Shown here in pieces: positions 6,678 to 25,276 of a stretch of DNA of 33,737 bases. The notes beneath the pieces were generated by a model. That model made no database searches. It saw only the letters and a program-made list of their open reading frames with translations, and was not told the origin of the DNA. Every line of letters begins with the position of its first letter. The stretch's first letter is position 1. This stretch comes from Microcaldota archaeon (GTDB lineage: Archaea > Micrarchaeota > Micrarchaeia > Micrarchaeales > CABMGC01): positions 1-33,737 of the forward strand of contig JAJYYF010000010.1 of assembly GCA_021801225.1 (NCBI GenBank), in the 5' to 3' direction. The translations under genes were made by a program, and so were the position numbers.

Positions 6678-7787
6678 ATGTTAATAGAAATATTCTCTGT
6701 AGGTGCAATAGATGCACTAGTACCAGTTTTAATAATAGTTATATTTATTGGTGCAGCAGCAGGGATAAGCAGAGGCTTTAGTTTTTTCAATCTATTTGGA
6801 GTAGGTACCTTGATGGGGATGGGTCCAAAAGCTAAAGGATCTTTAGCACAAAAAACCTTCAAAAAGTCCTATACTAAACCCTCTCAAAAACCATTAAAAG
6901 TAAAAAAGACCAAATTTGAAGATGAAAAAGAAAATAAAGATAAACAAATTAGAAATGATTTTAATAGATACTTCAACAAAGGCACAACAGCCGCAACTAT
7001 AGATACAAGTGGTCCAGAACCAAAGGGAGCAAGTCAATTAAATGAACCTGATAAAAAATCTTCAAGTATATTTGTAAATGCTTTTGAGAAATCACTAATT
7101 TTAACATCACCCTTAGTTAGAGGAACATACGGAGCTGGGAAAGGTTTTGTAAATTTAGTTGCTAAAAAAGGTAGACTTAAAAAATTAGCCGGAGTGGTAT
7201 ATAAATATGATGAGGAGACCTTCAAAATAAAGAAAAATGGAGAAGAGAAAAACTTCGCAAGATATACTAATAGAGGTTATAATACCCTTCTAGAAGAAAA
7301 TATGTTTGGTTTGGCAGTAGCAAGAAGAGAAGTTTTAAAAGAAAAGCAAAAAATAATAAATGACAAAAAACTTTCACAGATTAAAAAGAAACTTCTACTT
7401 GCAAATCTTGCTGGTCTTGATCGTGTTTTTTCAAAAAGACTTGAAAATTTAGAAAATTCTTTTGATAAAATAAATAAGTTACAAGACTCTTATACTAAAA
7501 AATTATTGAGTTTAAGAACAATTCAAGATGAAAAGATTAAAGAGGAAAAACGACAAAAAATAATCGATGAAACTTATAATGAGTTTGCAAAAATATACAC
7601 AAAATCGTTCAACACCACTAGTGATTATAGGGCAGAGGATTTAATAAATAACATTCAACAAATTACTAATAAGAGATATGGTAAGTTTACATTTAATCTT
7701 AGAGTAGGAGGTAAAGATCCGAATGAAAAGTCTAAAGATTACCGCACACTTATAGAGTTCAATCTAGGTAGAAAAGAAGAAAAATAA
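6678..7787 (+). CDS. Single-TM protein with a long charged, coiled-coil-rich cytoplasmic region; first gene of the secretion-like cluster
   Basis: N-terminal TM (IDALVPVLIIVIFIGAAAGI), then ~330 aa of Lys/Glu-rich sequence. No known domain recognised. Confidence 0.75.
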   Translation: MLIEIFSVGAIDALVPVLIIVIFIGAAAGISRGFSFFNLFGVGTLMGMGPKAKGSLAQKTFKKSYTKPSQKPLKVKKTKFEDEKENKDKQIRNDFNRYFNKGTTAATIDTSGPEPKGASQLNEPDKKSSSIFVNAFEKSLILTSPLVRGTYGAGKGFVNLVAKKGRLKKLAGVVYKYDEETFKIKKNGEEKNFARYTNRGYNTLLEENMFGLAVARREVLKEKQKIINDKKLSQIKKKLLLANLAGLDRVFSKRLENLENSFDKINKLQDSYTKKLLSLRTIQDEKIKEEKRQKIIDETYNEFAKIYTKSFNTTSDYRAEDLINNIQQITNKRYGKFTFNLRVGGKDPNEKSKDYRTLIEFNLGRKEEK

Positions 7788-7803
7788 ATGGTAGAGATTT
7801 GCT

Positions 7804-9051
7804 ATGCAAAAAATGAAAACATTTCGTATATCTGTCCTTTTAACCTTATTATTATTTGGAATTTCATATGCGGCACCAGTTCTTTGCAACTCCAATCTGT
7901 TAAATACTAATCTCTATTCAGAAATTGCATACTTTTCAAATTATTCTATTAATGTTGCAATTTCATTTTCATTATTTGCAATATTGACATCATTTTTCTT
8001 TATAGCAGTTATTTATATAATAAATAAAGTATTTCCAGAAGCACGTTTGGGTTCATTTATAAATAACGAGTACAAAGAAATAGTAAAATCAATACTAATA
8101 ATAATTATAATTTATGGTTCATTAGCATTTTTTAGTGGTGTTGCAGTTTCATTAACCGGAGCTTCAGTAGGTACCTTCTCTACAAGTTTAGGAAATCTTC
8201 TTTATAACAGCGAAGTTTATTTATGTGGTACAAATAATATCTTAACAACAGGTACCGAAAATCTGATAAGTGTTGCATTAGCTGATGGGTTATTAAAAGG
8301 ATTAACAATAAGTTGGGGAGGTCTTCCAATACCTCCGGTTCCTCTTCCCGGAATCGGAGCATTTCTTCCTGTAGTAAAATCAGGTGTAGAATTTAATTTA
8401 CTAACTAATAATATATTTCAAACAGACTTCGTATCAGGAACTCAATTTGTAACCTCAGTAATGAACGATATCTTTAACAATGTGATATTTCCAGCAGTTA
8501 ATTTAATAACTGTTCAAATAAGTATACTACCTATCTTTGAAATTATAGGTTTATGGTTCTTAATACCACTGGGCTTGATATTCCGTGCACTTCCATTTAT
8601 TAGAGGAATTGGTGGAACATTAATCGCATTAGGGATAGGGATAGCTATAATATGGCCAGCGACTCTTGTATTATTTAATATACCTGTATCTAACTTTTTT
8701 TATGGTTATCTCTCACTTCATGGAGAAACACCTACTTCAGCATGTAGTTCATTAGGCTTATTATCAACAATATGTTCTGGCCTCTCAGAGTATTCATATT
8801 TTTCTCCATCAATTGCTTTAACAAGTTCTGCAGTTTCTAGTATAACTCCATTTTCAATAGCATTATCCTCTTTGTCTTCAATATATCCTGGGCTGAATTA
8901 TATACTACAAAATACCTTATACATAATACTTCAGGTTTTCATACTTTTCATATTTGATTTAATAATAGCCTATACAATTACGGAAAACATAGCAAAAACA
9001 TTAGGAGGATCTTTAGATCTCTCTTTAACTAATAGATTGAAGTTGTTTTAA
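7804..9051 (+). CDS. Polytopic membrane protein, paralog 1 of 6 (P1)
   Basis: Signal peptide-like N-term, several TMs, shared motif IPLGLIFRALPFIRGIGGTLIALGIGIAIIWP and C-terminal ITENIAKTLGG. Confidence 0.82.
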   Translation: MQKMKTFRISVLLTLLLFGISYAAPVLCNSNLLNTNLYSEIAYFSNYSINVAISFSLFAILTSFFFIAVIYIINKVFPEARLGSFINNEYKEIVKSILIIIIIYGSLAFFSGVAVSLTGASVGTFSTSLGNLLYNSEVYLCGTNNILTTGTENLISVALADGLLKGLTISWGGLPIPPVPLPGIGAFLPVVKSGVEFNLLTNNIFQTDFVSGTQFVTSVMNDIFNNVIFPAVNLITVQISILPIFEIIGLWFLIPLGLIFRALPFIRGIGGTLIALGIGIAIIWPATLVLFNIPVSNFFYGYLSLHGETPTSACSSLGLLSTICSGLSEYSYFSPSIALTSSAVSSITPFSIALSSLSSIYPGLNYILQNTLYIILQVFILFIFDLIIAYTITENIAKTLGGSLDLSLTNRLKLF

Positions 9052-10301
9052 TGATACCACTCTTATTCGCAGTACAATCAACGGCATGCAATCTGGGCAA
9101 TATTAATGCTAACAATTGGATTGGAATAAATGGATTGGTAATCATAGCAATGTTTTGTGTTGGTGCATTAATTTACAGTTTAAGCTCTCTACTACCTATA
9201 CAAACAGGTAAGAAGATAAAAGGAAATGTTATTTATGAATTAAGTGAAGGAATAATAAGTCTAATAATACTTCTTTCTTTAATCTCATTAGTATATGCAT
9301 CATGTTCTGTAGGTTCAACTCTATCTGGACAAAGTAATTATCAAAATATTTTTCAAGCAGATGAATATTATGTTGGTAACTTACTTTTTGTTAAAGGAAC
9401 TTCATTAGTTACCCAACTCAGTTTCCAAGGAATTGCAGTAGCAATAGATGGAAACATAGTCACATTAATTCTAGGAAAAGTTACAGGCGCTTTAAACAAG
9501 AATTTAGGCAGCGGAAATAGTTTATTTAATCTAGGTAACTCCGGTTCAAGTTCTTCTGGTTCTACGGGAGCAGCTCAAATAGGTTCACAAGGAAGTACTA
9601 CAAATCCAACAGTTGGCTTCAGCGTGACTCTTGCTACTTCATCAGATGTTGAAGGATTATTTGATAGTTATGCTGGAACATATGCAACTTATGGAGCAGG
9701 AGTGGTAGTTACATTTGGTTTACTTTTTGTTCTTTATCTTTTACTTCCAATAATAACTGCATTAGCCTTTACTCTTGTTGTCCCTATATCCCTAATATTA
9801 AGATCCTTTGGATTTTTAGGTCATGGCTTACGATCAATATCAAATACTTTGCTTGCTTTAGCAATTGCTTTTTATATTGTTTTTCCCTTAACAATAAGTA
9901 TGAATGCATTTATAGTTAATTGGATGTACTGCAGTAATGGCGTTACAGTTTGTAATCCTTATACAATATACACTGGAAACTATAAAATTGCTACAATACC
10001 TATAGGTTCACTTTTTAAACAAAATACAGTTAACTTTTTAAATTATGGAGGATTTTCTTTATCACTTCCAACAAATTTCTATAGTTCTTTGGCTACTAAT
10101 GGGGGAGGTGTAGGGCAAACGGTGAAAAATCTTTTAGAAGGTATAGTCACATTACCTAATCAAGTTGCAGGTGTCTCAACAGAAATATCTGAGTACTTTT
10201 TTGAAGGGGTTTTATTAGTTGCAATTGATTTAATGATAACTCTTGCATTTGCTCAAGGCCTTACAAAAGCATTTGAACAAATACCACATTTAATAAATTA
10301 A
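9051..10301 (+). CDS. Polytopic membrane protein, paralog 2 of 6 (P2)
   Basis: Start overlaps the P1 stop (TAATG). Shared motif VPISLILRSFGFLGHGLRSISNTLLALAIAFYIVFPLTISM; no clear signal peptide. Confidence 0.8.
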   Translation: MIPLLFAVQSTACNLGNINANNWIGINGLVIIAMFCVGALIYSLSSLLPIQTGKKIKGNVIYELSEGIISLIILLSLISLVYASCSVGSTLSGQSNYQNIFQADEYYVGNLLFVKGTSLVTQLSFQGIAVAIDGNIVTLILGKVTGALNKNLGSGNSLFNLGNSGSSSSGSTGAAQIGSQGSTTNPTVGFSVTLATSSDVEGLFDSYAGTYATYGAGVVVTFGLLFVLYLLLPIITALAFTLVVPISLILRSFGFLGHGLRSISNTLLALAIAFYIVFPLTISMNAFIVNWMYCSNGVTVCNPYTIYTGNYKIATIPIGSLFKQNTVNFLNYGGFSLSLPTNFYSSLATNGGGVGQTVKNLLEGIVTLPNQVAGVSTEISEYFFEGVLLVAIDLMITLAFAQGLTKAFEQIPHLIN

Positions 10302-10319
10302 ATGAAATAAGAAGATATT

Positions 10320-11762
10320 ATGGATAAAAAAATAAATTTAAAGATTTCAAGAATTCTTTTAAGTTTACTTTTAATCTTTTTAACATTTAATTTAGCTTCA
10401 TCCGCAACAACAAATACTTATAATCTAGAAACTCCTGTATCACAATTTCAATCATGGTTCCCAATTATAACACTTGCAGTTATAGCGAGTTTTTCAGTAG
10501 TTATACTCTATTTTGTATTGGGCTATGTACTTAATAACAAAAACATGATTAGCGGAGCAAAATTAGAAATGCAAAAGGTTTTGTTTACAATTGTTGTAAT
10601 GGTCATAATTATTTTATTATTAAATTATGTTGGAACTGCAGAGTACTCAACTAATTTAATATCAAAAAGCTCAATACAAACAATATGTAATCAATTAAAT
10701 AATCCAAATACTGATAACTCACTTGCATTTGTTGATTCTGCAGAAAGTGTTAACTCCCCAACTTATAATATCTGTTCAGGTTTGATAGCTAATGCAGGAG
10801 GTAAAAGTATAACTACAAATTTAGATTACGGACTTGCAGCTACTTATGTAATACTATCAAATCTTACAAATCAAGCGGCTAATAATCTAAACGCAATTTA
10901 TGTTTATAGAACTTACGTAGGTTTTCTGTCCAACTTCAAGGCTACTGACGGTTTGTGTTTTCCACAAGTAACCTGTTTGTTAGGAGGTGAGGGAGCATCA
11001 TTTAGCGTAGAGTATGGTTATGATCCATTTGCAGGATACAATCCATTAATTACTCGTTCTACAGAGTTTGTTTCAAATCAATCTACATTAATATTTTATC
11101 TTTTCATAATTCAACTTCTCTTTATACTGCTGGTAATTTATGGTTGGCCATACCTTCTAGCTGCAGGATTAATCTTAAGTGCATCTACTCTTACAAGAAA
11201 AGCAGGTGGTTTTCTAATAGCATTTGCAATTTCTGCATTAATAATATTTCCAATAATTTATCTGATGGAGTATACTGCATTTACCTCAAATACTTTATCT
11301 CCAATAGGTGCTTCATCCTTACCTTCTTTATCATTAACCGGAGAAACATTTAACTCAAAAATAATACACTATGATGCAACAGGATCAAACTTTTTTGTAT
11401 TTCCAAATGCTACGTATGTTCTTAATTACGATGGTTGTTGGCCGCATGGAGGATTAATAGCGCAAGAGTTACTAGTTGTTGGTGCTTATAGTGTACCAGT
11501 TTACGGCCTTGTTCTCGGAGTTGTAAATATATTAGGTACTGTAGGAAATAACCCTATTAGCGTTCCAATACCTTTCTTTAATTGCAATCCATCTAATGCA
11601 ATAAACTCAATCTTTGACCTAATGAATCTTTATGGAATTATGTCAGTTATTGGTTTAATATTTCCATTATTAAATATATTTATAGGGATTACGGCAACAA
11701 TAGGGATCTCACAATTATTGGGTGGAACAACAAATATACTGGGATTAAATAAATTATTATAG
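10320..11762 (+). CDS. Polytopic membrane protein, paralog 3 of 6 (P3)
   Basis: Signal peptide-like N-term, SWFPIITLAVIASF motif, LLAAGLILSASTLTRKAGGFLIAFAISALIIFP motif, C-terminal ISQLLGG. Confidence 0.82.
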   Translation: MDKKINLKISRILLSLLLIFLTFNLASSATTNTYNLETPVSQFQSWFPIITLAVIASFSVVILYFVLGYVLNNKNMISGAKLEMQKVLFTIVVMVIIILLLNYVGTAEYSTNLISKSSIQTICNQLNNPNTDNSLAFVDSAESVNSPTYNICSGLIANAGGKSITTNLDYGLAATYVILSNLTNQAANNLNAIYVYRTYVGFLSNFKATDGLCFPQVTCLLGGEGASFSVEYGYDPFAGYNPLITRSTEFVSNQSTLIFYLFIIQLLFILLVIYGWPYLLAAGLILSASTLTRKAGGFLIAFAISALIIFPIIYLMEYTAFTSNTLSPIGASSLPSLSLTGETFNSKIIHYDATGSNFFVFPNATYVLNYDGCWPHGGLIAQELLVVGAYSVPVYGLVLGVVNILGTVGNNPISVPIPFFNCNPSNAINSIFDLMNLYGIMSVIGLIFPLLNIFIGITATIGISQLLGGTTNILGLNKLL

Positions 11763-13010
11763 TTGAAATATATGTTAAGGAAAAAGATTTTATTGTTTTT
11801 TTTCATTTCAATGTTAGTTCTAGGTTTATCCGGCGCCTCACAAACTTACTGTAGCGATCTTTTCAATAATGTTCATGGAATTGTAAGCAATACAGTTTAC
11901 AATTTATCAACATTTAATGCTTTAATATCATTTACTGGTTTAATAATAATAGCTGTATTAATAACTATGTCGTTAATCTACGGTTTAGGGGTAGCTTTAG
12001 GTCTAGACAGCTTCAAACAATTTGCAAAAACAGAGTATATAGAATCCTTTGTTAACCTATTAATCTTGTTGTTTGTTGTAGGAACAATTTTTACATCAAG
12101 CGGTTCAATTTTATTTATTTCTAACTTAACATCTTCAGTTATACCTTCACAATCTGCATCAATAAATACTAATTTAATATCCCCTAATGCTCCTTCGAGT
12201 GGTATAAAAGGGGTATACATACTTACCTGTAATAATATTCTTAATGTACAAATACTCACCGGAATCACTATTTTAATAGGAACTTATTTAGAACTTATTC
12301 TTTATCAAATTCTTTCAGGTTTATCAATACAATTTAGTTTCTCAGGTACACACTCATTTTCACTAGGAAATCTTATACCTAGCTTTTCAATTACTCCATT
12401 TGCAGGATTAGGAATAACACAGGCATTTATTTATAATGAATTTTCAGCATTAAGTGCTTTTATAGGTGTAAGCATAGGTGCAGTAGTTCTACTTTTTGTA
12501 ATATACTTTCTATTTCCAATATTTTTCTTTGTTGGAATTTTATTCAGATCATTTCCATGGACAAGAGCAGCCGGTGGCTCATTAATAGCCTTATTTATAA
12601 CATTCTTCATAATATTTCCTTCAATACTCTCAGTATTTACATTTTCAGGAGCATCTAACATCTTATCTAATGTGAACTCTTTATGTTCAACTTCAAACTC
12701 TGTAAGTCCGGGTAAAAGTTCTTGTTTTTCATCAAATGGCCTTAATTTAGTTTCATTTGCACAACAATATGGTTTAGGTTATTTATCAGGAACCTCTCCA
12801 GGATCCTTTATCGCAGGATTCTTATTTAAAAATGGGTTTTCATTTAGCTCTAATATTTCTCTATACTCAGAAGAGGTTTCATTTTATGTAATCATGCTTT
12901 TAGGTTTATTTATATCATTTCTTATATCGTATGATGTGCTTGGTGTATTAACAAGCATTTTAGGTTCGCCATCATTTAGTGCGAAGAGCATATTAGGAAA
13001 GATTGTATGA
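11763..13010 (+). CDS. Polytopic membrane protein, paralog 4 of 6 (P4)
   Basis: Signal peptide-like N-term, FFFVGILFRSFPWTRAAGGSLIALFITFFIIFPSILSV motif. Confidence 0.82.
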   Translation: MKYMLRKKILLFFFISMLVLGLSGASQTYCSDLFNNVHGIVSNTVYNLSTFNALISFTGLIIIAVLITMSLIYGLGVALGLDSFKQFAKTEYIESFVNLLILLFVVGTIFTSSGSILFISNLTSSVIPSQSASINTNLISPNAPSSGIKGVYILTCNNILNVQILTGITILIGTYLELILYQILSGLSIQFSFSGTHSFSLGNLIPSFSITPFAGLGITQAFIYNEFSALSAFIGVSIGAVVLLFVIYFLFPIFFFVGILFRSFPWTRAAGGSLIALFITFFIIFPSILSVFTFSGASNILSNVNSLCSTSNSVSPGKSSCFSSNGLNLVSFAQQYGLGYLSGTSPGSFIAGFLFKNGFSFSSNISLYSEEVSFYVIMLLGLFISFLISYDVLGVLTSILGSPSFSAKSILGKIV

Positions 13011-14119
13011 CATTATTAATTCAAAATATAATGGTATTTGTCGTAAACAGCTGTATAAGTAGTGTTAACTACTTTTTAACATCTCCATATACAACTTGGT
13101 TTCCAGTTGTAACCTTAGCAGTTCTTGCCAGTTTCACAATTTTAATAATAATTTATTCATTATCTACAATAATAAATGCCGGAAAAGTAAGAAGTTGGAT
13201 AAAAAATAAGTTTCTAGATTTATTCATTACCCTTATTCTTATAATGTCATTTGGAACTATATCTACCTTGATATGTGCAAGTAATCCTACTCCTTACTTC
13301 TCAAAAGCAGGTCTATTACCAAATAACTGTAATGTATCCTCAGTAAATGACATATACTCCCTTTCTTTATGTGATTTAAATCAATTCAATACATATACTC
13401 TTCAATTCAATCAATATCTTTACTTTTTACTTTTACTATTTTCAATAACTCCTAAAGTTTCAGGTACTTTATCAATAGGCTTAAATGGTCAAAATGGAAT
13501 AGCCGGTATAAATCCAAAGCTATCCGCTCAAACCGGCGCTGTAGATCTTGATCCATTTGGAAAAATAAATAAGTTTGATGGCTTTATACTTCCTGCACTA
13601 TATGCATTAACATTATTGAATGAAGTAGAGTTACTTTTACTGGCATCATCACCATTACTTTTTGCCATATTTATTGCAATAGGTTTAATTGCACGTTCAT
13701 TTGAGATCACTAGAACCTTTGGTAATGGTATGATAGCCTTTGCAATAGGTATAGGCTTCATCTTTCCAATAATAGTTAGTCTTAATTATGGTTTTATGGA
13801 TTACAGTGTACAAAATTCTTTGACATTAGGATTGGGTTCCTCAGTTTCTGGGATAACTCCTACACTACTACCTGTAGCTAATCCTGTTGTAGTATTTATT
13901 TCAGCGGCAATTGGTTTTGCAACAGGAAGTGGTTCTCCATTAGGTCAAGCTGCCACCTTATTACCAGAATATTTATTTTCATACTTAGGCTTGATAGTTG
14001 TAGGAATAACCATAATACCCTTGCTTACCTTTACTATAGTCACATCATTTGTTTCTGATTTTTCAGGAGCTCTGGGTGAAAAATTTGATTTAGGAAATCT
14101 TCTAATAAACTTACTGTGA
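13007..14119 (+). CDS. Polytopic membrane protein, paralog 5 of 6 (P5)
   Basis: ATGA overlap with the P4 stop; TWFPVVTLAVLASF and AIGLIARSFEITRTFGNGMIAFAIGIGFIFPIIVSL motifs. Confidence 0.82.
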   Translation: MTLLIQNIMVFVVNSCISSVNYFLTSPYTTWFPVVTLAVLASFTILIIIYSLSTIINAGKVRSWIKNKFLDLFITLILIMSFGTISTLICASNPTPYFSKAGLLPNNCNVSSVNDIYSLSLCDLNQFNTYTLQFNQYLYFLLLLFSITPKVSGTLSIGLNGQNGIAGINPKLSAQTGAVDLDPFGKINKFDGFILPALYALTLLNEVELLLLASSPLLFAIFIAIGLIARSFEITRTFGNGMIAFAIGIGFIFPIIVSLNYGFMDYSVQNSLTLGLGSSVSGITPTLLPVANPVVVFISAAIGFATGSGSPLGQAATLLPEYLFSYLGLIVVGITIIPLLTFTIVTSFVSDFSGALGEKFDLGNLLINLL

Positions 14120-14125
14120 TTAAAT

Positions 14126-15214
14126 ATGAAGAAAAAGTTAATATTTATTATTTCAATTCTTGTTTTGTTATTGCAAGTAAGTTTTATCTACTCCGCAACA
14201 ACTACCTCACAACAATACTGCAGTTCACAAAGTTTAATAAATCAAAATGCTCCATGGTACTGTAATCAAATAAATCAAGCTATGGTGTCATACTGGGAAA
14301 AGTGGAGTCCTATAGCATATCTGGCGCTTTTTGTATCTTTCGATATTGCTTTGGTTATTTATTTAGCAAGTGTTTTATTAGGAAATGATAAACTTAAGAA
14401 CATCGCATACTCTGAATTTTATGAAGCCATAGCAACAGGCCTTATAGTTATAGGCTTTTTATCCTTAAGTGCAACAATTTTAGGATTAGGTCCATCATTA
14501 ATCGTAAATGCAAATCCATACATTACCTCTCTTTCCTATATAAATAACACAATTGCATCTACAAAAGCAGTTGTATTGCAACTATTTACTATATCACAAA
14601 AAGATTATGTATATACTAAAACCTCCTTGGGATTCTGTGTCTCAACTACAGTTAGTTCTTATTGTGTATCAAATGTCGTTGGTGTATTTAGTTTTGCAAT
14701 AAATTATTTATTCATAATACCTGCCTCTACCTTAATATCATTTCTCATGGATGGTCTAACTCTTCTTTACGGTGAGTTTTATCTAATACTACTATTCATG
14801 TATGCAGCAATACCTGTATTTTTAATTCCTGGGATAATTCTAAGGGCTATTTTACCTACAAGATCTCTCGGAGGCCTAATGATAGCTATAGCAATAGGTT
14901 TTTACATCATACTGCCAACTTTATTCTCTGTAGCATTTTACTTTACAAATACTAGTTTGATAAATCAATTTAACTCTCAAAGTTCATTTTTGTCAACACA
15001 CTCCTCAGGAGGAGATGCACAGTTAAATGCAGCTTATCAAACTTCTCCTTTAGTTACTGAGTTGAATCTAGCTCAACAAGGATTAGGTTCATTTTGGGTA
15101 TCTGTATTGTTCTATCCGATACTCATATTTGCTATGACTTATGCGATAATAACTCAACTCGCACAGTTCCTAGGAGGGGCAATTAAATCTTCTTCAAGAT
15201 TAAAAATAATATAA
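14126..15214 (+). CDS. Polytopic membrane protein, paralog 6 of 6 (P6)
   Basis: Signal peptide-like N-term, KWSPIAYLALFVSF and IPGIILRAILPTRSLGGLMIAIAIGFYIILPTLFSV motifs, C-terminal LAQFLGG. Confidence 0.82.
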   Translation: MKKKLIFIISILVLLLQVSFIYSATTTSQQYCSSQSLINQNAPWYCNQINQAMVSYWEKWSPIAYLALFVSFDIALVIYLASVLLGNDKLKNIAYSEFYEAIATGLIVIGFLSLSATILGLGPSLIVNANPYITSLSYINNTIASTKAVVLQLFTISQKDYVYTKTSLGFCVSTTVSSYCVSNVVGVFSFAINYLFIIPASTLISFLMDGLTLLYGEFYLILLFMYAAIPVFLIPGIILRAILPTRSLGGLMIAIAIGFYIILPTLFSVAFYFTNTSLINQFNSQSSFLSTHSSGGDAQLNAAYQTSPLVTELNLAQQGLGSFWVSVLFYPILIFAMTYAIITQLAQFLGGAIKSSSRLKII

Positions 15215-15298
15215 TTTATTATTTTTTATATAATTGTATTTATCTCTTAAATAGATATATTTATATTTTCTGTTTTATCTATATTATCATATAATAGG

Positions 15299-16138
15299 TT
15301 GTTAAATTTGGCTATAAAAACTAATATTCTTATTTTTACAATCTTTATCTCAATAAGCGTTTTGTTTGCAGTGGGCACATTAGTCAGTACAAACCCTGCA
15401 TTAACAATTTTATTTTCAATAATTGCTTTATTTTTTTCAGTTCTAGGTTTTTCTACACGATTTTATACTTATTTATACATTCCATTATTTAGATCTAGAA
15501 AAAGAAATATAGTTTTAAGTAATCAGGAGGCATTTTTATTATCACCTTCTGGAAATACAATAATTATAAACGACTCTGTAGGAACATACGCTACTGCATT
15601 TGTTAAAATACCACTTTATAGATCTTCTACAGAAATGACCGAATCTGAAAAGTTAGATTTAGGGCGAACATTTAGTAGGGTACTTACATTAACTAAAGAA
15701 ACAACTAAGTTCTCATCAGAGATGTATGTTGTAAACAAAGACGAATACATAAACAAAGTAAGAGCGAAACTACAAAATAGCTCAGAAAAATTAAGAGAAA
15801 TGCAATCCTCTGAGCCTTCTAACTCTGAAAAATTAAATCGTTTAAAAGGCGAACTTACAATGTGGGAGAACTTAATATCAAACATTAGTAGTTCTAGATC
15901 CGAGTCATTAGTTACTTATAATATGGTAAGTGCTTTTGGTCAAAACGAAGAGGAAGCTTCTAGCATAGCCTATCAAAAAGCAGAAGAAATAGCTGCAGGA
16001 ATAAGTGCAGCTTTAGGTGTAACTGCATATATTGCAGAAGGAGAAGAGCTGTTATCTTTAATAGAACCAAATTATATGATACCTGTAGAAACAGTTAATG
16101 AAATAATAAGACAAAAAAGTATAAAAGAGGGAATATAG
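15299..16138 (+). CDS. Two-TM protein with cytoplasmic alpha/beta domain; possible VirB3 + VirB4-N-like module
   Basis: Two N-terminal TMs then ~215 aa soluble domain ending GQNEEEASSIAYQKAEEIAAGISAALGVTAYIAEGEELLSLIEP. Homology to VirB3/VirB4-N is by layout only. Confidence 0.7.
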   Translation: MLNLAIKTNILIFTIFISISVLFAVGTLVSTNPALTILFSIIALFFSVLGFSTRFYTYLYIPLFRSRKRNIVLSNQEAFLLSPSGNTIIINDSVGTYATAFVKIPLYRSSTEMTESEKLDLGRTFSRVLTLTKETTKFSSEMYVVNKDEYINKVRAKLQNSSEKLREMQSSEPSNSEKLNRLKGELTMWENLISNISSSRSESLVTYNMVSAFGQNEEEASSIAYQKAEEIAAGISAALGVTAYIAEGEELLSLIEPNYMIPVETVNEIIRQKSIKEGI

Positions 16139-16145
16139 GGATAAA

Positions 16146-16973
16146 ATGGATGAACAAACAGTGATGTATTTAGGTGTATCTGCAATAACACCATTTGTAC
16201 TTTTAGTTTCTGCATCTAGTTTAGGTCCTTTAGGGATAATTATAGATGTATTTGCATTAATCGCAGTGGCTTTAATACTAATGCTAAATTACGCAGACTT
16301 TCTTATATTTCCAGCTGTAACAAAACTCTTAGGTATAAAAATACAATTATCAAAAGAACATTATTGTTTAAAGGAACAAAACGCCATATTGAAGTATACT
16401 GGAGGTATTTATTATGCAACAGGGTACTTGACGGCTAACATATACAATTATGTTTTCAATGCAGAGTCATCAAATCCTAACTCAGACGATGATCAAATCT
16501 CTTTAGCTCCGGAAAAGTGGGAACGAATACTTATGAATGTTGATTTTCCATTTAAATTCAATGTAATAACAGATGCAAAAGATGTTCAAAAATACAGAGA
16601 AGATTTAGAAGGTGAACGTGGTTTCCTAGAGTTCCAATTATCTAGAGAATCAAACTCATCAAATCCAAATCAAATGACATTAACTGAGTTAGAAAGAAAA
16701 ATAAATGTTACACAAGCAAAAATAGATAAAATGTCTTCTGGAGAGCTGCCTTTAAATACAATTATGTATATAGAAACTACTGCGGTAGGTATAAGCGAAA
16801 AAGATGCGGTAGATTCACTTACTAATCAATTAAATAGACTAGAAACAGTATTTCATACATTTGATGTAAACATTCTAAGAGTAGTCGGCAGAGAGATACA
16901 TACCCTATACAAATTAAATTATCTTTTATATGAACCACAATTAATTGAAAAGTTATTCAATCATCAAAAATAA
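16146..16973 (+). CDS. Two-TM protein with cytoplasmic alpha/beta domain; second copy of the same architecture
   Basis: Two N-terminal TMs, then soluble domain with MYIETTAVGISEKDAVDSLTNQLNRLETVFHTFDVNILRVVGREIHTL, collinear with the preceding gene's domain. Confidence 0.7.
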   Translation: MDEQTVMYLGVSAITPFVLLVSASSLGPLGIIIDVFALIAVALILMLNYADFLIFPAVTKLLGIKIQLSKEHYCLKEQNAILKYTGGIYYATGYLTANIYNYVFNAESSNPNSDDDQISLAPEKWERILMNVDFPFKFNVITDAKDVQKYREDLEGERGFLEFQLSRESNSSNPNQMTLTELERKINVTQAKIDKMSSGELPLNTIMYIETTAVGISEKDAVDSLTNQLNRLETVFHTFDVNILRVVGREIHTLYKLNYLLYEPQLIEKLFNHQK

Positions 16974-17019
16974 TCATATAAAATACTACTAATTTAAATA
17001 ATATTATCATTAATTATAA

Positions 17020-18537
17020 TTGATAACAATGACGCTTTTACGTATTCAAACACTAATGAGTAATGAGATATCAAAGCGTATATTCATCACTAGACCTCCT
17101 GAACCTCCATCAGAATTTTTATTTAATGATCCTACAAATTCAATCTTTATAGGAACAAGTAAAATTTTCAAAGTTCCCTTTACATGGACCTTCTCAAATA
17201 TAACTAATCCGCACATATCAGTTGTAGGTATAACCGGAGCAGGAAAGAGTTTTTTTGTAAAAACATTCATAACGAGGGCTAGTTATGTTTGGAATACAAA
17301 TGCAATAATAATCGATTGGGCAGGAGAGTACATTTCATGGGTAAAACAAAGTGGTGGAAAGGTAATTGCTTTATCTAAAGGGGATTACCTAAATATAATG
17401 GATCTTTCAGGCATGAAACCTTTAGACAGAACAAAACAAATAATGAACTCATTGGATATACTTACAGATATCTCAACGTACCCTGAGCAAAGAAGACTCA
17501 CCTCAGAAGCTATCGAGCAAGCTTACTTGAATCTCGGTTTTCCATTAGCCTCACCCCCGCCACCAGGAAAAGAACCACCAACGCTAAAAGATGTATCCAA
17601 ACTTCTAGACGAAAAACTACAAGAGGGGACTTATGAATATCCAGCAGAGCTTGAAAATGCAATATACCGTTTAAGACAGTTTTCCCGTGAAGGAGAGGAT
17701 TACTTTGCCAATAAAAGCACAATAGATATAGGTAAACTTACTACCTCTGGTTTAGTGGATCTAGATTTATCTAGCCTTCCTGATGAAAGATTCAGAGCAA
17801 TGGCTGCTTTGTTCATACTTCAAACATTAAAGGAAAAGATGCGTCTTGAAAGCTGGAGTTCGTCTGCAGGACTTAAAACCTTGGTTGTTTTAGATGAAGC
17901 CTGGAAGGTAGCTAGCGATGAAAGAAGCGATGCTGTTACGATTATAAGAGAAGGTAGAAAGTATAGCTTCGGTTTAATTGTAGCTTCACAAAACCCTACT
18001 GATGTAAATGAAGCAATCTTCTCAAATGTAGGAACAACTTTCATGCTTAGAATACGTTTTGAAAAGTTTATGAATTATCTACAAGGGTCATTAAACTTTT
18101 CTGATTTTATAAGAAATGAGATAAGCAAATTAGGTGTCGGTCAAGCAGCAATAGATATGGCATTTAATACTGGAGTAAGATTCCCTAATATATTTTTAGT
18201 TGATAAAATAGTCGGAGAGCTGCCTTTAGATACCTACTCTTTATTTATTTCAGATATCTTGTCTGAAAAGGAGCTTTCTGATCCAGAAATTAAAAAAGAG
18301 TATTCCTTGGATAAAATGTCGATAAATTCACGTTTAATTGAGTTGGGTTTTGGTTCAGAGGTAATAACCAAATTGCTTAGTTACATGAATGAAAAAGGAA
18401 GAACTTTAGATATTAGAGATTTTATTAAGACAGCTATGTCTTATGGAGTTAATAAAGATACACTTATATCATTCATGCGTTCAATAGGAATTAGTGATTC
18501 AATAATCTTAAAAATAATGTCTTATATAGTTGTGTGA
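17020..18537 (+). CDS. VirB4/HerA/TraC-superfamily ATPase with C-terminal helical extension
   Basis: Walker A GITGAGKSF, Walker B LVVLDEAWKV, sensor-like VASQNPTDVNEAIFSNVGTTFMLRIRF. TTG start at 17020 or ATG at 17029. Confidence 0.88.
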   Translation: MITMTLLRIQTLMSNEISKRIFITRPPEPPSEFLFNDPTNSIFIGTSKIFKVPFTWTFSNITNPHISVVGITGAGKSFFVKTFITRASYVWNTNAIIIDWAGEYISWVKQSGGKVIALSKGDYLNIMDLSGMKPLDRTKQIMNSLDILTDISTYPEQRRLTSEAIEQAYLNLGFPLASPPPPGKEPPTLKDVSKLLDEKLQEGTYEYPAELENAIYRLRQFSREGEDYFANKSTIDIGKLTTSGLVDLDLSSLPDERFRAMAALFILQTLKEKMRLESWSSSAGLKTLVVLDEAWKVASDERSDAVTIIREGRKYSFGLIVASQNPTDVNEAIFSNVGTTFMLRIRFEKFMNYLQGSLNFSDFIRNEISKLGVGQAAIDMAFNTGVRFPNIFLVDKIVGELPLDTYSLFISDILSEKELSDPEIKKEYSLDKMSINSRLIELGFGSEVITKLLSYMNEKGRTLDIRDFIKTAMSYGVNKDTLISFMRSIGISDSIILKIMSYIVV

Positions 18538-18838
18538 TTATTTGCAAAAGACATTTGTAATAAGTAAAATAGATATTAAAAAGATGCTTTCTCCTTTAGG
18601 GATAAGCCCTGGGAGCATAGAAGCAATGTTAAGTATAATGGATAAATCACATAAACATGTAGATGCGATTGCATTTGTTGGTATGTTACAAAAATTAGGA
18701 TTAAGTCTAAATAAAATAGAAAACATTTTAAGAAGAATAGGAATTGATGACACTAGAATAATAGAGATATTTAACTCTTTAGACGAGGAAAAAATAGAAG
18801 CAACCTTCGGAAAAGTTGTTGATTTAAAAATTGAATAA
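18530..18838 (+). CDS. Small all-helical protein homologous to the C-terminal module of the adjacent ATPase
   Basis: GTG start overlaps the ATPase stop. Ungapped alignment to the ATPase C-term (see findings). Confidence 0.75.
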   Translation: MCDYLQKTFVISKIDIKKMLSPLGISPGSIEAMLSIMDKSHKHVDAIAFVGMLQKLGLSLNKIENILRRIGIDDTRIIEIFNSLDEEKIEATFGKVVDLKIE

Positions 18839-18864
18839 TATGTATTTTTATTAGGTAGAATAAA

Positions 18865-19317
18865 ATGGCAAAATCAAAATTAAATTCAAAGTCAAATATG
18901 AAAGACAGGAAAACATACTGCATAATGTGTGGAAAAGAAAAAAATGGGATAGAGATAAAAATAGATAACGTCATAAAAACAATAAGGTATATAAAGAAAA
19001 AAATATTCCACACCGAAAGGAATAATAGACTGGTCGTCTGCGAAGAATGTTACCAAACATATGCAAAAAATAGAAAAAGATTTGTTTCACGACAACGTCT
19101 TTACATAGGTCTTGGTGTTGTTTTTCTTATCTTTTCAGTATTTCTAGCCCCTAACGTCGGTTCATTTATAATAGGGTTAGTAATTTTATTGTTACTTTAT
19201 ATATTATCATTTCTTAATTACACTCCTGAGTTATCAATTTCGATTACAAATGATAAAAATAAGCTATCAAAGTTCTTAAACACTCATAATAAAAAGGAAT
19301 TAAAAAATAATACTTGA
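18865..19317 (+). CDS. Membrane protein with N-terminal zinc-ribbon-like motif and two TMs
   Basis: CIMC...CEEC pattern followed by two hydrophobic helices (LYIGLGVVFLIFSVFLA, SFIIGLVILLLLYILSFL). Confidence 0.7.
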   Translation: MAKSKLNSKSNMKDRKTYCIMCGKEKNGIEIKIDNVIKTIRYIKKKIFHTERNNRLVVCEECYQTYAKNRKRFVSRQRLYIGLGVVFLIFSVFLAPNVGSFIIGLVILLLLYILSFLNYTPELSISITNDKNKLSKFLNTHNKKELKNNT

Positions 19318-19364
19318 AACGTAACCAATAAATACGTTTTAGGATTAGTATTATTCGTGGTTCC

Positions 19365-20090
19365 TTGGCCGAAGAAGTTATAATAACTCCAAAAGTTGAA
19401 AAAATAGAGATTACTGCTAAACTTAACGGTACACTTAACGAGATAGCCGCTAATGCATCAAAATTACCTTTTTACTCAGTATCTACTGCAGAGGACTCAA
19501 TATCCATAGGTATGGTCGAAAGTAGAAATATAAGAAAACAACCGTATCTTTTCTACATTTTTGAAATACGAGCCGATAAAGTTTCAATAATTTACTCAAT
19601 ACCTAACGACATAAGTGAAAGTATGCGTCGTGCTTTCGTTCTAAGAAATTTTTCATCATTTTTAGCTGGAATATCTAATATATACGAAGTATCACAACAA
19701 GAACTTATGCAGTATGTTGATTCGACTATAGATAAATTACTTTCAGGTCTATCTCAAAACTATAGTTCATTATTCAACAAATATGAATCATTACTTACCG
19801 AGTACAGAGCTACAAAGAGACTTAACATAGAACTTTCAGCATCAAACAGAAACTTAACATTAGAAACATCAGAATTAACAGAGGATAATAAAAAACTAAG
19901 ATTAGAACTTGACAGACTACAAAAGTACTCTGATGAATCACTAATGTCAATGGTAGAAGATTGGATAACTGTACATGGGAGTAGTATAGACGTTGATGAG
20001 TTTGCCAAGACCTATAATCTAACTTCTCCAAGAGTAGAGGATATATTAAATAAAATGGTTTCCAAAGGTTATATTGAGTTGAGGGGTTAA
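19365..20090 (+). CDS. Cytoplasmic protein with central coiled coil and C-terminal wHTH-like domain
   Basis: Heptad-rich LTEYRATKRLNIELSASNRNLTLETSELTEDNKKLRLELDRLQ then IDVDEFAKTYNLTSPRVEDILNKMVSKGYIELRG (wHTH-like). TTG start. Confidence 0.75.
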   Translation: MAEEVIITPKVEKIEITAKLNGTLNEIAANASKLPFYSVSTAEDSISIGMVESRNIRKQPYLFYIFEIRADKVSIIYSIPNDISESMRRAFVLRNFSSFLAGISNIYEVSQQELMQYVDSTIDKLLSGLSQNYSSLFNKYESLLTEYRATKRLNIELSASNRNLTLETSELTEDNKKLRLELDRLQKYSDESLMSMVEDWITVHGSSIDVDEFAKTYNLTSPRVEDILNKMVSKGYIELRG

Positions 20091-20092
20091 AT

Positions 20093-20239
20093 TTGAAATA
20101 TAATGTTTATATAAATACACATTTTAAATACATTAAATCCTACAAAATATTAAAAAGTGTTAAAAATAATACAAATTTTCTATCAAAGTTAGTGATGTCA
20201 TTTGTAGAGAAAAAAATAATGAAGAAAGAAAGTATTTAG
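20093..20239 (+). CDS. Small basic ORF (48 aa), not in the ORF track
   Basis: TTG 20093 to TAG 20239: MKYNVYINTHFKYIKSYKILKSVKNNTNFLSKLVMSFVEKKIMKKESI*. Fills the gap between flanking genes; no homology claim. Confidence 0.35.
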   Translation: MKYNVYINTHFKYIKSYKILKSVKNNTNFLSKLVMSFVEKKIMKKESI

Positions 20240-20256
20240 TTTAAATGTGTATATAA

Positions 20257-22617
20257 ATGGTTTCAAGAAAAAAGTTAATAATTGCGGGATTGATAATAAC
20301 TTTAGCAATAATTCTAATGTTTGTATTCATTTTTGCATATATAAACAATATTCTTCTTAATTTAAAACCTACCTATATAGAAAATGGAAATATCTCTACA
20401 TCATTATCTATATTTTCATCAGGGCTGGCTTCTTATAACAACTCATTATCTGCAGTAGCATATGCTTATATAAAATATGATATTAAAAATGCAACTAACT
20501 CATCAATAGGTTTGTATTTATTTGAAAAAAACCCATTAGAAAGAATTTATCTTATAAATCCATCTAACTCTTGTTATAATTGTTTCAATTTTGATGCACT
20601 TAAAAGTAACTTAACAAATGATTTAGAAAAATATGATTTTATAAAAAACTCAAGTAGTTTCCAAACTATAAATCTTTTAAATACCTCTAACATACCGCCA
20701 GGATCTACGGTCATAATCCCTACTGGGTTACTTCCTGCAAGCTTACTTCCAGATACTGGTTTTTCTTCATTAAGCAGTATAAAAAATATAATAACACTAC
20801 TTAACGAAAATGATACAATAATTTATATAGGAGAGAACTTTTCAAGATTAGATGAGGACGGACAAATATTATTGACATCTAACACTACCTCTACTATATT
20901 AGATAAATATGGATTAGGTACATATCCTTTTTCCAATATAACTACAACAAAACAATATAATTTTTCATCCCCTACTTTCAGATTTAATAATGGTTCGTCA
21001 TTAGGAAGTATTTCATACATAAATCTAAGCAGTGGTTCTGTAATCGCATTCAGCAATACTCAAAAATCCGGTTGGAATAGTACCTCTGCATTATCTCATG
21101 ACATTTCAAAAGCAATTTTTGATAGATTTTGGATTCCTATTCTTGCAGATGGCTTTCTAAATATCTCAACAAAATCAAATCAATCCTCTTTATCTGGGAA
21201 AAATTTGTTAATAACTCTTAAAAAGACAATAAACGCTACTGGAAATTATTTGGAGTTAGTTAATAACTCATATCCATTAATACTAGTGAACAGTAATAAC
21301 AGTTACAAAAATCAAATATTTCAAGAGTTATTTAACTTGACATACTTAAATAAAGCTACAATAGGCTTACCTTCTGTAATTGGTTATGGACAGTTAGTAC
21401 CTACTAAAATAACCATAAGTCCGTACTCAACAAATAAGGCTTTTAGTCTTATAGAATATAACTCTTCATTAAATTATGTTTATAGTTTTCCACTTAATTT
21501 TTTCAATACCTCCTACACCATCTTAAAGTATAGTAAGTTTGATGTACCTACGGGCCAGTATTATATAGCTTCACTTGTCGATATAAACAATGAATCTTAT
21601 GGAAATGCTGCCTTCTACGTTCCTTATTTAAACATAACAACTACTCTAACTGATTTCAAAAATGCAAGTTTTGCACTTAATATAATGAGTGGAAGCATAC
21701 CTCTATCAAATGTTCCTTATACTATAACAATAAATAATCAATTTGAACAACAAGGAGTAATCAATAACGGTATTATAAATTATACTCTTCCAAAAGGTAC
21801 AGTTTTGAATTATGGTTATCAAGAAATTAAATTAAACCTAATTAATATCAACTACTCTGTTTTCGAGTATTATCAAGCTCCACCAGGAATTCCCCCCTTA
21901 TATATAGAATTTGGTGTAGCTGCATTCATAATCCTTTTATTAAATGTGGTTTTAAGACCACCAAACACTGAAAATTACTTTATAGATGTTCCAGAAATGG
22001 CCCCTATAAAAAAAGAAGAAGTAACTGTTAAAGCAGAAGAAATAATTACATTATTTGACACACTCAACTTTAAGTACAACTGGAAGTATATGCCTTTGAC
22101 ATCAGAAGAAATAAAGCTTGGAATAAGCAATAACATAAGAAAAGGCAACCTGCCTATCTCCATTACTCTTCAAAATACAAAGGGTATCTTGTATAAACTT
22201 TCTTCAGAAGGAAAAATAGAATCAAAAAATAATTATTATCTTCCTACTGAATGGATTAAAAAATCTGGACATGACTCGGAGTATTTAATAATCTTCAGAA
22301 AACTTAGGGATTTCTTTGTTTCAAATGCGATTCCATTTACTGATTTGGACAAAGCATCTGACTCAGATATTATAGCAACTATAAGGCAAAAAACATATAA
22401 ACTATTTATTTTTTCACAAACTTCAGGAGTAAGGCCTATAAAATTAACTAACGAGAACAAAAATGTAATAATATTCTTAAATAACGAAGAAAAACTTAAG
22501 TTTGTAGATTCATTGTATTCTGTTTATGATTCAGAAATGAATGAATTAAGACTCGCATTGTATTCAGGATATATAGAATTAGGAGATTTAGAAAATCTTA
22601 GCTCTACATTTTCGTAA
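20257..22617 (+). CDS. Large ectodomain protein: N-terminal TM, ~530-aa extracytoplasmic region, second TM, ~220-aa cytoplasmic domain
   Basis: TM LIIAGLIITLAIILMFVFIFAYI, region rich in N-x-S/T sequons, TM LYIEFGVAAFIILLLNVVL, then charged soluble domain. Confidence 0.8.
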   Translation: MVSRKKLIIAGLIITLAIILMFVFIFAYINNILLNLKPTYIENGNISTSLSIFSSGLASYNNSLSAVAYAYIKYDIKNATNSSIGLYLFEKNPLERIYLINPSNSCYNCFNFDALKSNLTNDLEKYDFIKNSSSFQTINLLNTSNIPPGSTVIIPTGLLPASLLPDTGFSSLSSIKNIITLLNENDTIIYIGENFSRLDEDGQILLTSNTTSTILDKYGLGTYPFSNITTTKQYNFSSPTFRFNNGSSLGSISYINLSSGSVIAFSNTQKSGWNSTSALSHDISKAIFDRFWIPILADGFLNISTKSNQSSLSGKNLLITLKKTINATGNYLELVNNSYPLILVNSNNSYKNQIFQELFNLTYLNKATIGLPSVIGYGQLVPTKITISPYSTNKAFSLIEYNSSLNYVYSFPLNFFNTSYTILKYSKFDVPTGQYYIASLVDINNESYGNAAFYVPYLNITTTLTDFKNASFALNIMSGSIPLSNVPYTITINNQFEQQGVINNGIINYTLPKGTVLNYGYQEIKLNLININYSVFEYYQAPPGIPPLYIEFGVAAFIILLLNVVLRPPNTENYFIDVPEMAPIKKEEVTVKAEEIITLFDTLNFKYNWKYMPLTSEEIKLGISNNIRKGNLPISITLQNTKGILYKLSSEGKIESKNNYYLPTEWIKKSGHDSEYLIIFRKLRDFFVSNAIPFTDLDKASDSDIIATIRQKTYKLFIFSQTSGVRPIKLTNENKNVIIFLNNEEKLKFVDSLYSVYDSEMNELRLALYSGYIELGDLENLSSTFS

Positions 22618-22631: not shown

Positions 22632-24284
22632 TTAATCTTCTAATTTTTCTTCTTGTTCCTCTTCAGATTTATTCTCGATTTCTTCATCAGGTTTATTATC
22701 ATTCTGGCCAAAAAGTTTACTATATCTTTTTTCTATGAGTGTTTTTAGTGAAGCTTCAATTTCTTTTTGATCAGTTTCAGTTATCTCTGAAAGATCATTA
22801 GATAACTGTTTAATATAACGCATAATTGTTTTATACCTTGTTTCTTGCAACTGCATATTTTTAACTCCACTCAAGTATCTTTGAAGTATTCTACCGCAGT
22901 CCATGACAGCAAGTTTTATCTCTTCAATTATATCATCTTCTTTTGCTATTGCTTGTTTCCCAACTCCAGAATAAGGCACATAAACACTTGAAACATTTAT
23001 TAATACACTAACCGGTTCTTCGTCAAATCTTCCAATACCATATCTTTTCCATTGTATCCCTTTTACCGCTTCTGTTATTGCACAGTTTGAGCCATCAAAT
23101 AGTAATGGAACTTTATTTGCAAATCTTAAAACATTACCTTCTGCTTCAATAACATTTCCATCTTTATCCACTTCATTACTTTTTTTACCAGAATCCCCTC
23201 CATAAGATATACCTGCTTCTACTACAAATGGTATTCCGCCTCTGAATACTTTTGGTTTTCTTTCTACGACACTCTGGAACTTAGGATTAAGTATATTCTT
23301 CATTGCTATTTCTATCTGTTTTTCTCCAATAGTTGACAACGAATCTAGCTCTGGTGCCATCCACTTTATCTGTTTGAAAACTTTAACTAATTTTTCAGCA
23401 TCTGACCACTGAAGTTTACTAGGTTCAATATCAAATAAAATATCTGGTGCTACTGCCTTTATCTCAGCTATCTTTCCTTGAGACACTCTAGAAAAACTTT
23501 CAATCAGAAAATCAGACACCGTTTTTTCGTGACTTCTATGTGCAAACTCTATCAAATCATTTGTATCAACTCCTAATGGATGTGGTTTTATCTCCTTAGG
23601 CTTCTTTGGCATCTCATTAACCGCTCTTAAAAATACAATCTCCTTTCCATCAGGATCATTTAATTTTATGGTAGCATGCGGATTTGATAAAACTGTTCTT
23701 TTAATATACTCCTCAACTCCATGATCACTTTTTTCATATTTTAACTCGCCAAACTCTCCAAATACCTCTGTCCCTCTTGTCATTTCCTCTATTTTTTTCA
23801 TGTTTGTTATCAATGGCTTATTAGTTTTAATTTCTAAATCTACATTGCATTCATAAGATTCCTTTTCATTAGATGACCTAATTGTTATTGGTTTACCTGT
23901 AGTTATTTTCGAAAATAATGTACAACCAGAGGCTCCTATACCTTGTTGACCTCTCTGTTGGACATATCTATGGAACTTTGTTCCGGCTAAAACAGTTGCA
24001 AATACCTTTCCAACAAGTTTAGATGGTATTCCAGGACCGTTATCTTTGACACTTATTGAGTACTTTCCTTCTTCTATTAACTTTATAGTTACATCTATCT
24101 CTGGCAAAATTCCTGCTTCCTCACACGCATCCAAAGAGTTAGTAATATACTCGTGAATTATTGTAGTCATAGACCTAGTTTTTCCAGAGTAGCCCAACAT
24201 CTGACTATTTTTTCTAAAGAACTCTGATATTGAGTGCTCCTTAAACTCTTTAAAAATTTCTTCTGATTTAACATACTCAGCCAT
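22632..24284 (-). CDS. top6B: DNA topoisomerase VI subunit B
   Basis: GHKL ATPase motifs HEYITNSLDACEEAG, VKDNGPGIP, FHRYVQQRGQQGIGASGC. The ORF track extends to 24353, but ATG at 24284 (MAEYVKSEEIFKEF) follows the upstream stop and fits the family N-term. Confidence 0.95.
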   Translation of the reverse strand: MAEYVKSEEIFKEFKEHSISEFFRKNSQMLGYSGKTRSMTTIIHEYITNSLDACEEAGILPEIDVTIKLIEEGKYSISVKDNGPGIPSKLVGKVFATVLAGTKFHRYVQQRGQQGIGASGCTLFSKITTGKPITIRSSNEKESYECNVDLEIKTNKPLITNMKKIEEMTRGTEVFGEFGELKYEKSDHGVEEYIKRTVLSNPHATIKLNDPDGKEIVFLRAVNEMPKKPKEIKPHPLGVDTNDLIEFAHRSHEKTVSDFLIESFSRVSQGKIAEIKAVAPDILFDIEPSKLQWSDAEKLVKVFKQIKWMAPELDSLSTIGEKQIEIAMKNILNPKFQSVVERKPKVFRGGIPFVVEAGISYGGDSGKKSNEVDKDGNVIEAEGNVLRFANKVPLLFDGSNCAITEAVKGIQWKRYGIGRFDEEPVSVLINVSSVYVPYSGVGKQAIAKEDDIIEEIKLAVMDCGRILQRYLSGVKNMQLQETRYKTIMRYIKQLSNDLSEITETDQKEIEASLKTLIEKRYSKLFGQNDNKPDEEIENKSEEEQEEKLED

Positions 24285-24288
24285 AATA

Positions 24289-24780
24289 TCATCTATATTT
24301 TTTTCTAAGGCTCTCCATAATCCTGTAAGCTTTTTTATGGGTTCCTCCCTCAACTATAATCTGTAGTGCAGCTGTAGCTATTGCTAATTGTTCTGTAGTG
24401 CCTATTATTCCTAGCGTATTTTCTTGCAAAGCAATTACTGCACCACTAACATCTTCTATATAATTTTTGGTTTTTCCTGAAGTGCCTATTATCCTAGCCT
24501 TTACTCTAAGTAACTCAGAATCCTTTTTAATTAAGTCTTTTAAATCGATATACTTGAAGTAGTACTCTTCATTTAATAATTTATAAGCGTGGTTAAGTGG
24601 GAAGCCCATTGATATGGCAATTAGTATATTTTTTAAGTTATACTCATCATACGGTTTTCCATCTATTTTTATTCTAGCTTCATCTAGTATATCTATCTTA
24701 CACTCTAATCTTTTTTCAAGCTTATCTATTACCTTTGATATTCCAGATATCTTTTTGTTTGGTATAAAAACTATGTCCAT
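24289..24780 (-). CDS. KH-domain protein, Dim2/Pno1 (Krr1-like) family
   Basis: Two KH-like segments (RLECKIDILDEARIKIDG; RVKARIIGTSGKTKNYIEDVSGAVIALQENTLGIIGTTEQLAIATAALQIIVEGGTHKKAYRIME). Confidence 0.85.
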   Translation of the reverse strand: MDIVFIPNKKISGISKVIDKLEKRLECKIDILDEARIKIDGKPYDEYNLKNILIAISMGFPLNHAYKLLNEEYYFKYIDLKDLIKKDSELLRVKARIIGTSGKTKNYIEDVSGAVIALQENTLGIIGTTEQLAIATAALQIIVEGGTHKKAYRIMESLRKKYR

Positions 24781-24891
24781 TAAATTCCCATTTTTATGTA
24801 AATTGAGATAAACAATTTAGCTGTACTTCGCCTTGAGTAATACTAATATTGTTAATTATTAATAAATCTTTCCTGTATTTATGGTATATTG

Positions 24892-25238: not shown

Positions 25239-25248
25239 GTTCATGAAC
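25239..25248. promoter_or_regulatory. Perfect palindrome GTTCATGAAC, candidate operator
   Basis: Self-complementary 10-mer ~28 nt upstream of the ATG of the wHTH gene at 25277. Confidence 0.35.
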
Positions 25249-25276
25249 TTCACGGTTTTGTCGAGGATGCGTTAAT

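Follow-up and report, generated by a model that had tools for sequence, protein, structure and literature searches.

An operon of fourteen membrane-system genes in Micrarchaeota

The DNA examined here is a contig of 33,737 nucleotides (JAJYYF010000010.1, assembly GCA_021801225.1; hereafter the window) from a Micrarchaeota metagenome-assembled genome of ~0.96 Mb that is ~91% complete. Positions 6678–22617 hold fourteen genes, all on the plus strand and mostly abutting, with spacings of -8 to +84 bp except for the 166 bp ahead of the last gene. We read this operon as the core of a Micrarchaeota machine that is chromosomal, kept by vertical descent and similar to type IV secretion systems (T4SSs) and the Ced system of Sulfolobales, and give that reading a probability of roughly 0.7. 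A sequence-only reading of the same DNA had described a co-directional, packed operon of ~16 kb with a VirB4/HerA-type ATPase, six paralogous polytopic proteins, two proteins with two transmembrane (TM) segments, and Zn-motif, coiled-coil/winged-helix and large ectodomain proteins. All of these are present, as is a 102-residue gene at 18530–18838 that it had not listed. The genes are as follows.

6678–7787, plus strand: A, one TM segment and a long basic/coiled cytoplasmic part; a lineage-variable accessory
7804–9051, plus strand: P1, polytopic membrane protein in slot 1 of six; slot-1 clade found class-wide
9051–10301, plus strand: P2, polytopic, slot 2; P family and class-wide clade
10320–11762, plus strand: P3, polytopic, slot 3; P family and class-wide clade
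11763–13010, plus strand: P4, polytopic, slot 4; the sole slot without a single class-wide clade
13007–14119, plus strand: P5, polytopic, slot 5; P family and class-wide clade
14126–15214, plus strand: P6, polytopic, slot 6; AlphaFold2 model, core motif RxxxxxRxxG...P
15299–16138, plus strand: B1, 2-TM hairpin and a cytoplasmic domain like the VirB4 N-terminal domain (AlphaFold2/Foldseek)
16146–16973, plus strand: B2, paralogue of B1 in the same hidden Markov model (HMM) family
17020–18537, plus strand: ATP, VirB4/HerA-type ATPase, motor domain only
18530–18838, plus strand: C, 102 residues, paralogue of the ATPase C-terminal helical domain
18865–19317, plus strand: Zn, CxxC/CxxC protein with a 2-TM hairpin
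19365–20090, plus strand: WH, alpha/beta domain, coiled coil and C-terminal winged helix
20257–22617, plus strand: ECTO, TM segment, ectodomain of ~500 residues, TM segment and cytoplasmic tail; no assigned family

Among the operon proteins, the ATPase alone has firm Pfam matches. The family and gene-order results given here come from iterated HMM searches over 80 relative loci. The order of six P genes, two B genes, ATP, C, Zn, WH and ECTO is kept across ~75 relatives and is conserved within the order Micrarchaeales. Because so many relatives keep it, the arrangement is far from chance, and the conservation of the neighbourhood, which the sequence-only reading had named as a check, is thereby borne out.

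The six P paralogues

P1–P6 constitute one HMM family, with each of the six seeds converging on 318 matches in 61 loci. A tree of 225 Micrarchaeales P proteins places every slot in one perfect clade (support 0.945–1.0). Six P genes are present in 39 of 39 Micrarchaeales operons uncut by a contig or locus end; the loci with fewer all end inside their first P, and one locus with nine P open reading frames (L034) shows frame breaks within what appear to be six genes. The P genes of other families of the class are clustered too, often as two clusters per genome, and each of the 19 clusters contains exactly six. The class-wide tree has a single clade for each of slots 1, 2, 3, 5 and 6 and two for slot 4; the strays are members of L153, where the slot numbering was shifted because an overlap filter dropped one gene, and a single L206 gene. 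Because sets of six and slot orthology are found class-wide, the six P paralogues are, on the evidence of these trees, older than the diversification of the class. They appear to be ancient, distinct proteins whose genes together hold a place that a lone VirB6-like gene takes in simpler systems. The simplest reading is one copy of each P per complex.

The AlphaFold2 model of P6 (pLDDT 88.7) consists of long bent helices. Its conserved residues include the near-invariant Gly236, Arg240, Arg246 and Gly249 and the invariant Pro264. Some P proteins in relatives, slot 3 among them, carry large insertions that bring the total to as much as 1143 residues, recalling RvhB6 of Rickettsiales. In many genomes of other Micrarchaeota families (L199–L217), P genes form a pair of six-gene clusters that lie apart from each other and from the genes for B and ATP.

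A probable split VirB4 and its neighbors

B1 and B2 belong to one HMM family with 147 matches in 74 loci; the B1 clade has a support of 1.0 and the B2 side 0.40. In the AlphaFold2 model of B1 (pLDDT 85.4), an N-terminal 2-TM hairpin is followed by an alpha/beta domain with a coiled-coil hairpin, and the top eight PDB matches found by Foldseek are all to R388 TrwK/VirB4 or its complexes (probability 0.82–0.99). ATP matches the Pfam families DUF87 (5e-14), AAA_10 and TraG, and aligns with the VirB4 family at 99.7% in hhalign over the motor part only. Because the B1 model matches R388 VirB4 and ATP covers only the motor, VirB4 is probably split in two here, with B representing the N-terminal part with a built-in membrane anchor and ATP the motor. 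The sequence-only reading had taken the 2-TM proteins for VirB3. We prefer to take B for a VirB3/PrgI-like hairpin attached to a VirB4 N-terminal domain, and not for a plain VirB3; a profile comparison of B with PrgI gave no match. VirB4/HerA-type ATPases are a hexameric family. The true start of ATP is probably the ATG at 17029, where the ATPases of relatives start.

C aligns with the C-terminal domain of the ATPase (hhalign 97.1%, E 5e-11), and its position is conserved in relatives. Zn is present at 79 loci, with its position conserved in other orders too, and WH at 68. ECTO occurs at 66 loci and is conserved across orders; it has no Pfam match and none to R388 VirB8, the one member of the VirB7/VirB8/VirB9/VirB10 core with which it was compared. 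Archaea have been reported to lack VirB3 and VirB8 (PMC11868833). The first ~60 residues of A are conserved in 13 distant relatives, several of which are encoded between P6 and B1.

Just ahead of the operon are a tRNA-His gene and the last part of a ribosomal-protein operon (L14 to S5). The stretch after the operon (22632–33737) encodes core proteins, namely topoisomerase VI B, a KH-domain-like protein, a coiled-coil/winged-helix protein at 25277, a DHH-family protein at 26136, aIF2 gamma, S6e, CDC48 and DUF2666. The protein at 32348–33289 is hydrophobic and of no assigned family, its one Pfam match being sub-threshold; among the negative controls of the VirB6 comparison described below, it scored highest.

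VirB2-type pilins and a second, simple locus

The genomes also encode VirB2-type pilins, which match the Pfam families T4SS_pilin (22 of 29 members, best 4e-7) and TrbC/VirB2 (19 of 29) and have R388 TrwL/VirB2 as their only PDB match (1.2e-4). Outside the window's genus, 14 of 14 genomes examined have a pilin gene at most two genes upstream of P1, and 13 of them have a gene for a 6-TM protein of ~243 residues ahead of P1. Within the window's genus, the pilin/6-TM pair is located away from the operon: at L170:8069-9346 in the window genome, which has another pilin at L121, and likewise at L185 and L187. Pilins stand beside B and ATP in other families (L154, L155, L163, L166), and the operon of family f11 (L153, L161) comprises two pilins, six P, two B, ATP, C, Zn, WH and ECTO. 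Tandem arrays of three VirB2-type pilins each are present at L154:6822-8050 and L166:292-1548, recalling the pilin arrays of Patescibacteria, and one genome (G058) has up to ten pilin matches.

A second, simple locus lies on another contig of the window genome (L121:3256-14703). It encodes an ectodomain protein, a 200-residue membrane protein, a VirB2-type pilin, one P, one B, a small ATPase, a WH, a 177-residue protein and a full-length VirB4-type ATPase of 739 residues. P_II (3e-39), B_II (7e-16) and ATP_II (2e-36) of this locus each match the corresponding window family, and the two WH proteins align at 98.5% (E 4e-15). The order pilin-P-B-ATP is found in 20 of 20 relatives of the second locus, with WH next in most. 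Because the 739-residue ATPase matches VirB4 beyond the motor, including part of the N-terminal domain (99.1%), the locus has two VirB4-type motors. It is probably the ancestral, Ced-like form. At L122:8432-10066, a HerA-like ATPase with an added C-terminal domain lies beside an endonuclease IV-like gene; its best NCBIfam match is CedD (6e-21).

Distribution and the absence of conjugation genes

Nearly every Micrarchaeota genome has the motor and the B family. B is encoded by 88 of 96 good-quality genomes and pilins by 89, and the six B-less genomes that were examined are also without P and without a pilin. In the window genome, the one relaxase family searched (PF03432) has no match, and the VirD4-type coupling protein family PF02534 has just one match, below the cut-off, to an unrelated HerA-like gene. 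Because neither a relaxase nor a coupling protein was found, as the sequence-only reading had also noted, we do not take the machine for one of classical conjugation. The same reading had proposed a T4SS/Ced-like machine without earlier description, a proposal that the pilins outside the window strengthen. A search of an open-access literature library returned no earlier description, and the genome paper on Mia14 mentions, in the text examined, type IV pili and no such system (PMC5498576).

Component types that match conjugation machinery could suggest a conjugative mobile element lodged beside the ribosomal operon. We regard this as scarcely credible: the motor had no match in phage records or viral contigs, plasmids gave only distant, partial matches, and the gene order and slots are conserved and orthologous across the class. 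A mobile-element origin is rejected, because no relaxase of the one family searched was found and because the conservation is deep and vertical.

Homology tests of the T4SS assignment

Several results weigh against a T4SS-like assignment of the operon. None of 33 P members matches TrbL in Pfam, whereas PrgH of plasmid pCF10, the positive control, does (1e-6). Against a seven-member set of MPF_T (mating-pair formation type T) VirB6 proteins, with 60 membrane proteins as negative controls, P scored at control level. A Foldseek search of PDB with P6 placed a VirB6 chain (7o3v_G) only at rank 18 with a probability of 0.28. The six-P clusters outside families f1, f2 and f11 do not adjoin the B-ATP core, and because they are separate from it we can only infer that P partners B and ATP there. 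For the other components, the link of B to VirB4 is structural, the Foldseek E-values of B1 against VirB4 are just 5e-3 to 4e-2, the profile alignment of B to VirB4, on the N-terminal domain, is weak (probability 16%), and ATP scores about equally against CedD, CedB, HerA and VirB4 models.

Further comparisons of P gave no VirB6 assignment either. A genome-wide TrbL search of the window genome found no match; hhalign of P with R388 TrwI alone, and profile-profile comparisons with a six-member MPF_FATA VirB6 set and with a haloarchaeal 7-TM protein, gave nothing above controls; the P6 fold received no clear VirB6 or other assignment among viral structures; and profiles of P and of B had no matches in PDB. 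Searches of NCBIfam with P1–P6 (E up to 0.1) and P_II (E up to 1) returned no CedA/TedA-type family. A similarity of P to TrwI noticed by eye, P...PT(R/H), was not supported and is not used. Because the fold, Pfam and profile tests showed no VirB6 homology, P is called VirB6-like solely by its place, topology and company. The six VirB6-like subunits of the sequence-only reading are supported by position, topology and partner genes and not by homology; the Foldseek check suggested there pointed to VirB4 for B1 and placed VirB6 well down the ranking for P6.

The NCBIfam matches of ATP are CedD (2e-20, at 73 bits against a family cut-off of 600), VirB4 CD1110 (1e-17), CedB (5e-17) and HerA (3e-16). 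With HerA models reaching almost the same scores, ATP cannot be assigned to VirB4 from its motor alone. A soluble repair HerA was rejected as its identity: the motor by itself is ambiguous, and the partner genes decide against it.

P1–P6 might belong to an unrelated membrane family, acting in lipid, glycan or S-layer assembly and travelling with a small VirB4 pilus system. The undetected VirB6 homology and the P clusters that lie away from the B-ATP core in several families fit this explanation. We nevertheless find it improbable, given that the second locus has a single P flanked by pilin and B in 20 of 20 genomes, that P, B and pilin share their presence and absence, and that P has neither an enzyme motif nor a Pfam match.

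Proposed mechanism and possible functions

In the T4SS/Ced-like machine that we favor, single copies of P1–P6 would assemble into a ring or platform in the membrane, matching a hexameric motor that B would hold to the membrane. Powered by ATP hydrolysis, the machine would extract pilin subunits from the membrane and assemble them into a thin VirB2-type pilus at the contact with the host, and macromolecules would pass through the assembly. WH may bring in nucleic acid or a cytoplasmic partner, and ECTO may serve outside the cell to guide the assembly or to anchor it. The likeliest use of such a machine would be to acquire or deliver macromolecules at host contact. By analogy with Ced, we slightly favor the import of nucleic acid over other directions and cargo.

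A machine of the Ced/Ted type would take up DNA from kin or from the host, to be used in repair, in recombination or as a source of nucleotides, and P would be its multi-subunit CedA. This specific function is plausible, though less likely than not. CedD leads the NCBIfam ranking of the motor, followed by a VirB4 and then CedB; the two VirB4-type motors of the second locus resemble CedB and CedD (PMC11868833); the pilin-membrane channel-VirB4 order is like that of Ted (PMC9905601); and the missing relaxase agrees with import, although six distinct channel subunits are not known from Ced/Ted. The machine could instead deliver effectors or other proteins to the host, as might the relaxase-free T4SS of Saccharibacteria, without which Ca. 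S. epibionticum cannot grow epibiotically (PMC10633639, PMC12102498). The parallel composition of that episymbiont system (VirB4, pilin arrays, no recognisable type IV coupling protein (T4CP) or relaxase), the near-universal retention of the machine in small genomes and the large ectodomain protein speak for delivery, whereas the winged-helix protein hints at nucleic acid; on balance we consider protein delivery only slightly less likely than DNA import. Distinctly less probable is a machine without cargo that only assembles a VirB2-type fibre for attachment or retraction. The pilin duplications in relatives (three in tandem, up to ten matches per genome) do recall adhesive or antigenically varied arrays, but a translocation-type motor with six channel-like subunits exceeds the apparent needs of a simple fibre, and both loci are retained.

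With regard to how DPANN archaea attach to their hosts and exchange material with them, electron cryotomography has revealed attachment organelles (PMC11420986) and, in ARM-1, host-derived nanotubes docking on a 21-nm barrel in the envelope (PMC11329633). The Micrarchaeota machine is a candidate for the contact or exchange apparatus of these host-dependent archaea, and its near-universal, operon-encoded T4SS-like components supply a concrete protein list for existing proteomes (for example, PXD045678) and tomograms. More tentatively, and with doubts that outweigh our confidence, we propose that the six VirB6-position proteins constitute an obligate hetero-hexamer, fixed before the class diversified, whose pseudo-sixfold ring, with one place for each protein, would sit above a hexameric split VirB4 and join episymbiont to host, possibly as the 21-nm barrel of ARM-1 host contacts. 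Any connection between the barrel and the machine is speculative.

Comparison with known systems

The closest archaeal parallels are Ced of Sulfolobales and Ted of Thermoproteales, chromosomal systems that likewise combine a VirB2-like pilin, a polytopic channel-like protein and a VirB4/HerA-type motor without a relaxase (PMC9905601, PMC11868833). The pilin gene precedes the channel gene in these systems too, as in the tedC-tedA order (PMC9905601), and the paired motors CedB and CedD have their counterpart in the second locus (PMC11868833). Micrarchaeota differ in having six distinct channel-position proteins instead of one or two, in carrying the VirB4 N-terminal domain as a separate 2-TM protein, and in the additional WH, Zn, C and ECTO proteins.

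Nanohaloarchaeal giant proteins with VirB4/TraG domains (SPEARE) are also DPANN surface machinery with a VirB4-type motor and a proposed T4SS relationship (PMC10266531); there, however, the motor is fused to a giant immunoglobulin-repeat protein, and no six-paralogue set has been described. In the MPF_FATA system of pCF10, the succession of polytopic, 2-TM and VirB4 proteins, PrgH(VirB6)-PrgI-PrgJ(VirB4), mirrors P-B-ATP. That system is plasmid-borne with a relaxase and a T4CP, its PrgH matches TrbL whereas P does not, and it shows no rearrangement of PrgI and PrgJ into B and ATP.

The T4SSs of Patescibacteria (candidate phyla radiation) likewise belong to ultrasmall episymbionts and are relaxase-free, with VirB2 arrays and PrgI/VirB3 plus VirB4 (PMC12102498). 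They are bacterial, keep VirB4 intact, and have a recognisable VirB6 in part of the genomes and no fixed six. The rvh system of Rickettsiales, which are obligate symbionts or parasites, offers a tandem set of ancient, strongly diverged paralogues in the VirB6 position, several of them enlarged by very big additional domains (PMC2653234). Its paralogues number five (RvhB6a-e) and have recognisable TrbL domains, and the system includes a Gram-negative outer-membrane core, VirB8-B11 and VirD4. The invariant six P proteins of Micrarchaeota parallel these five and lead to a structural prediction, that of a hetero-hexameric platform.

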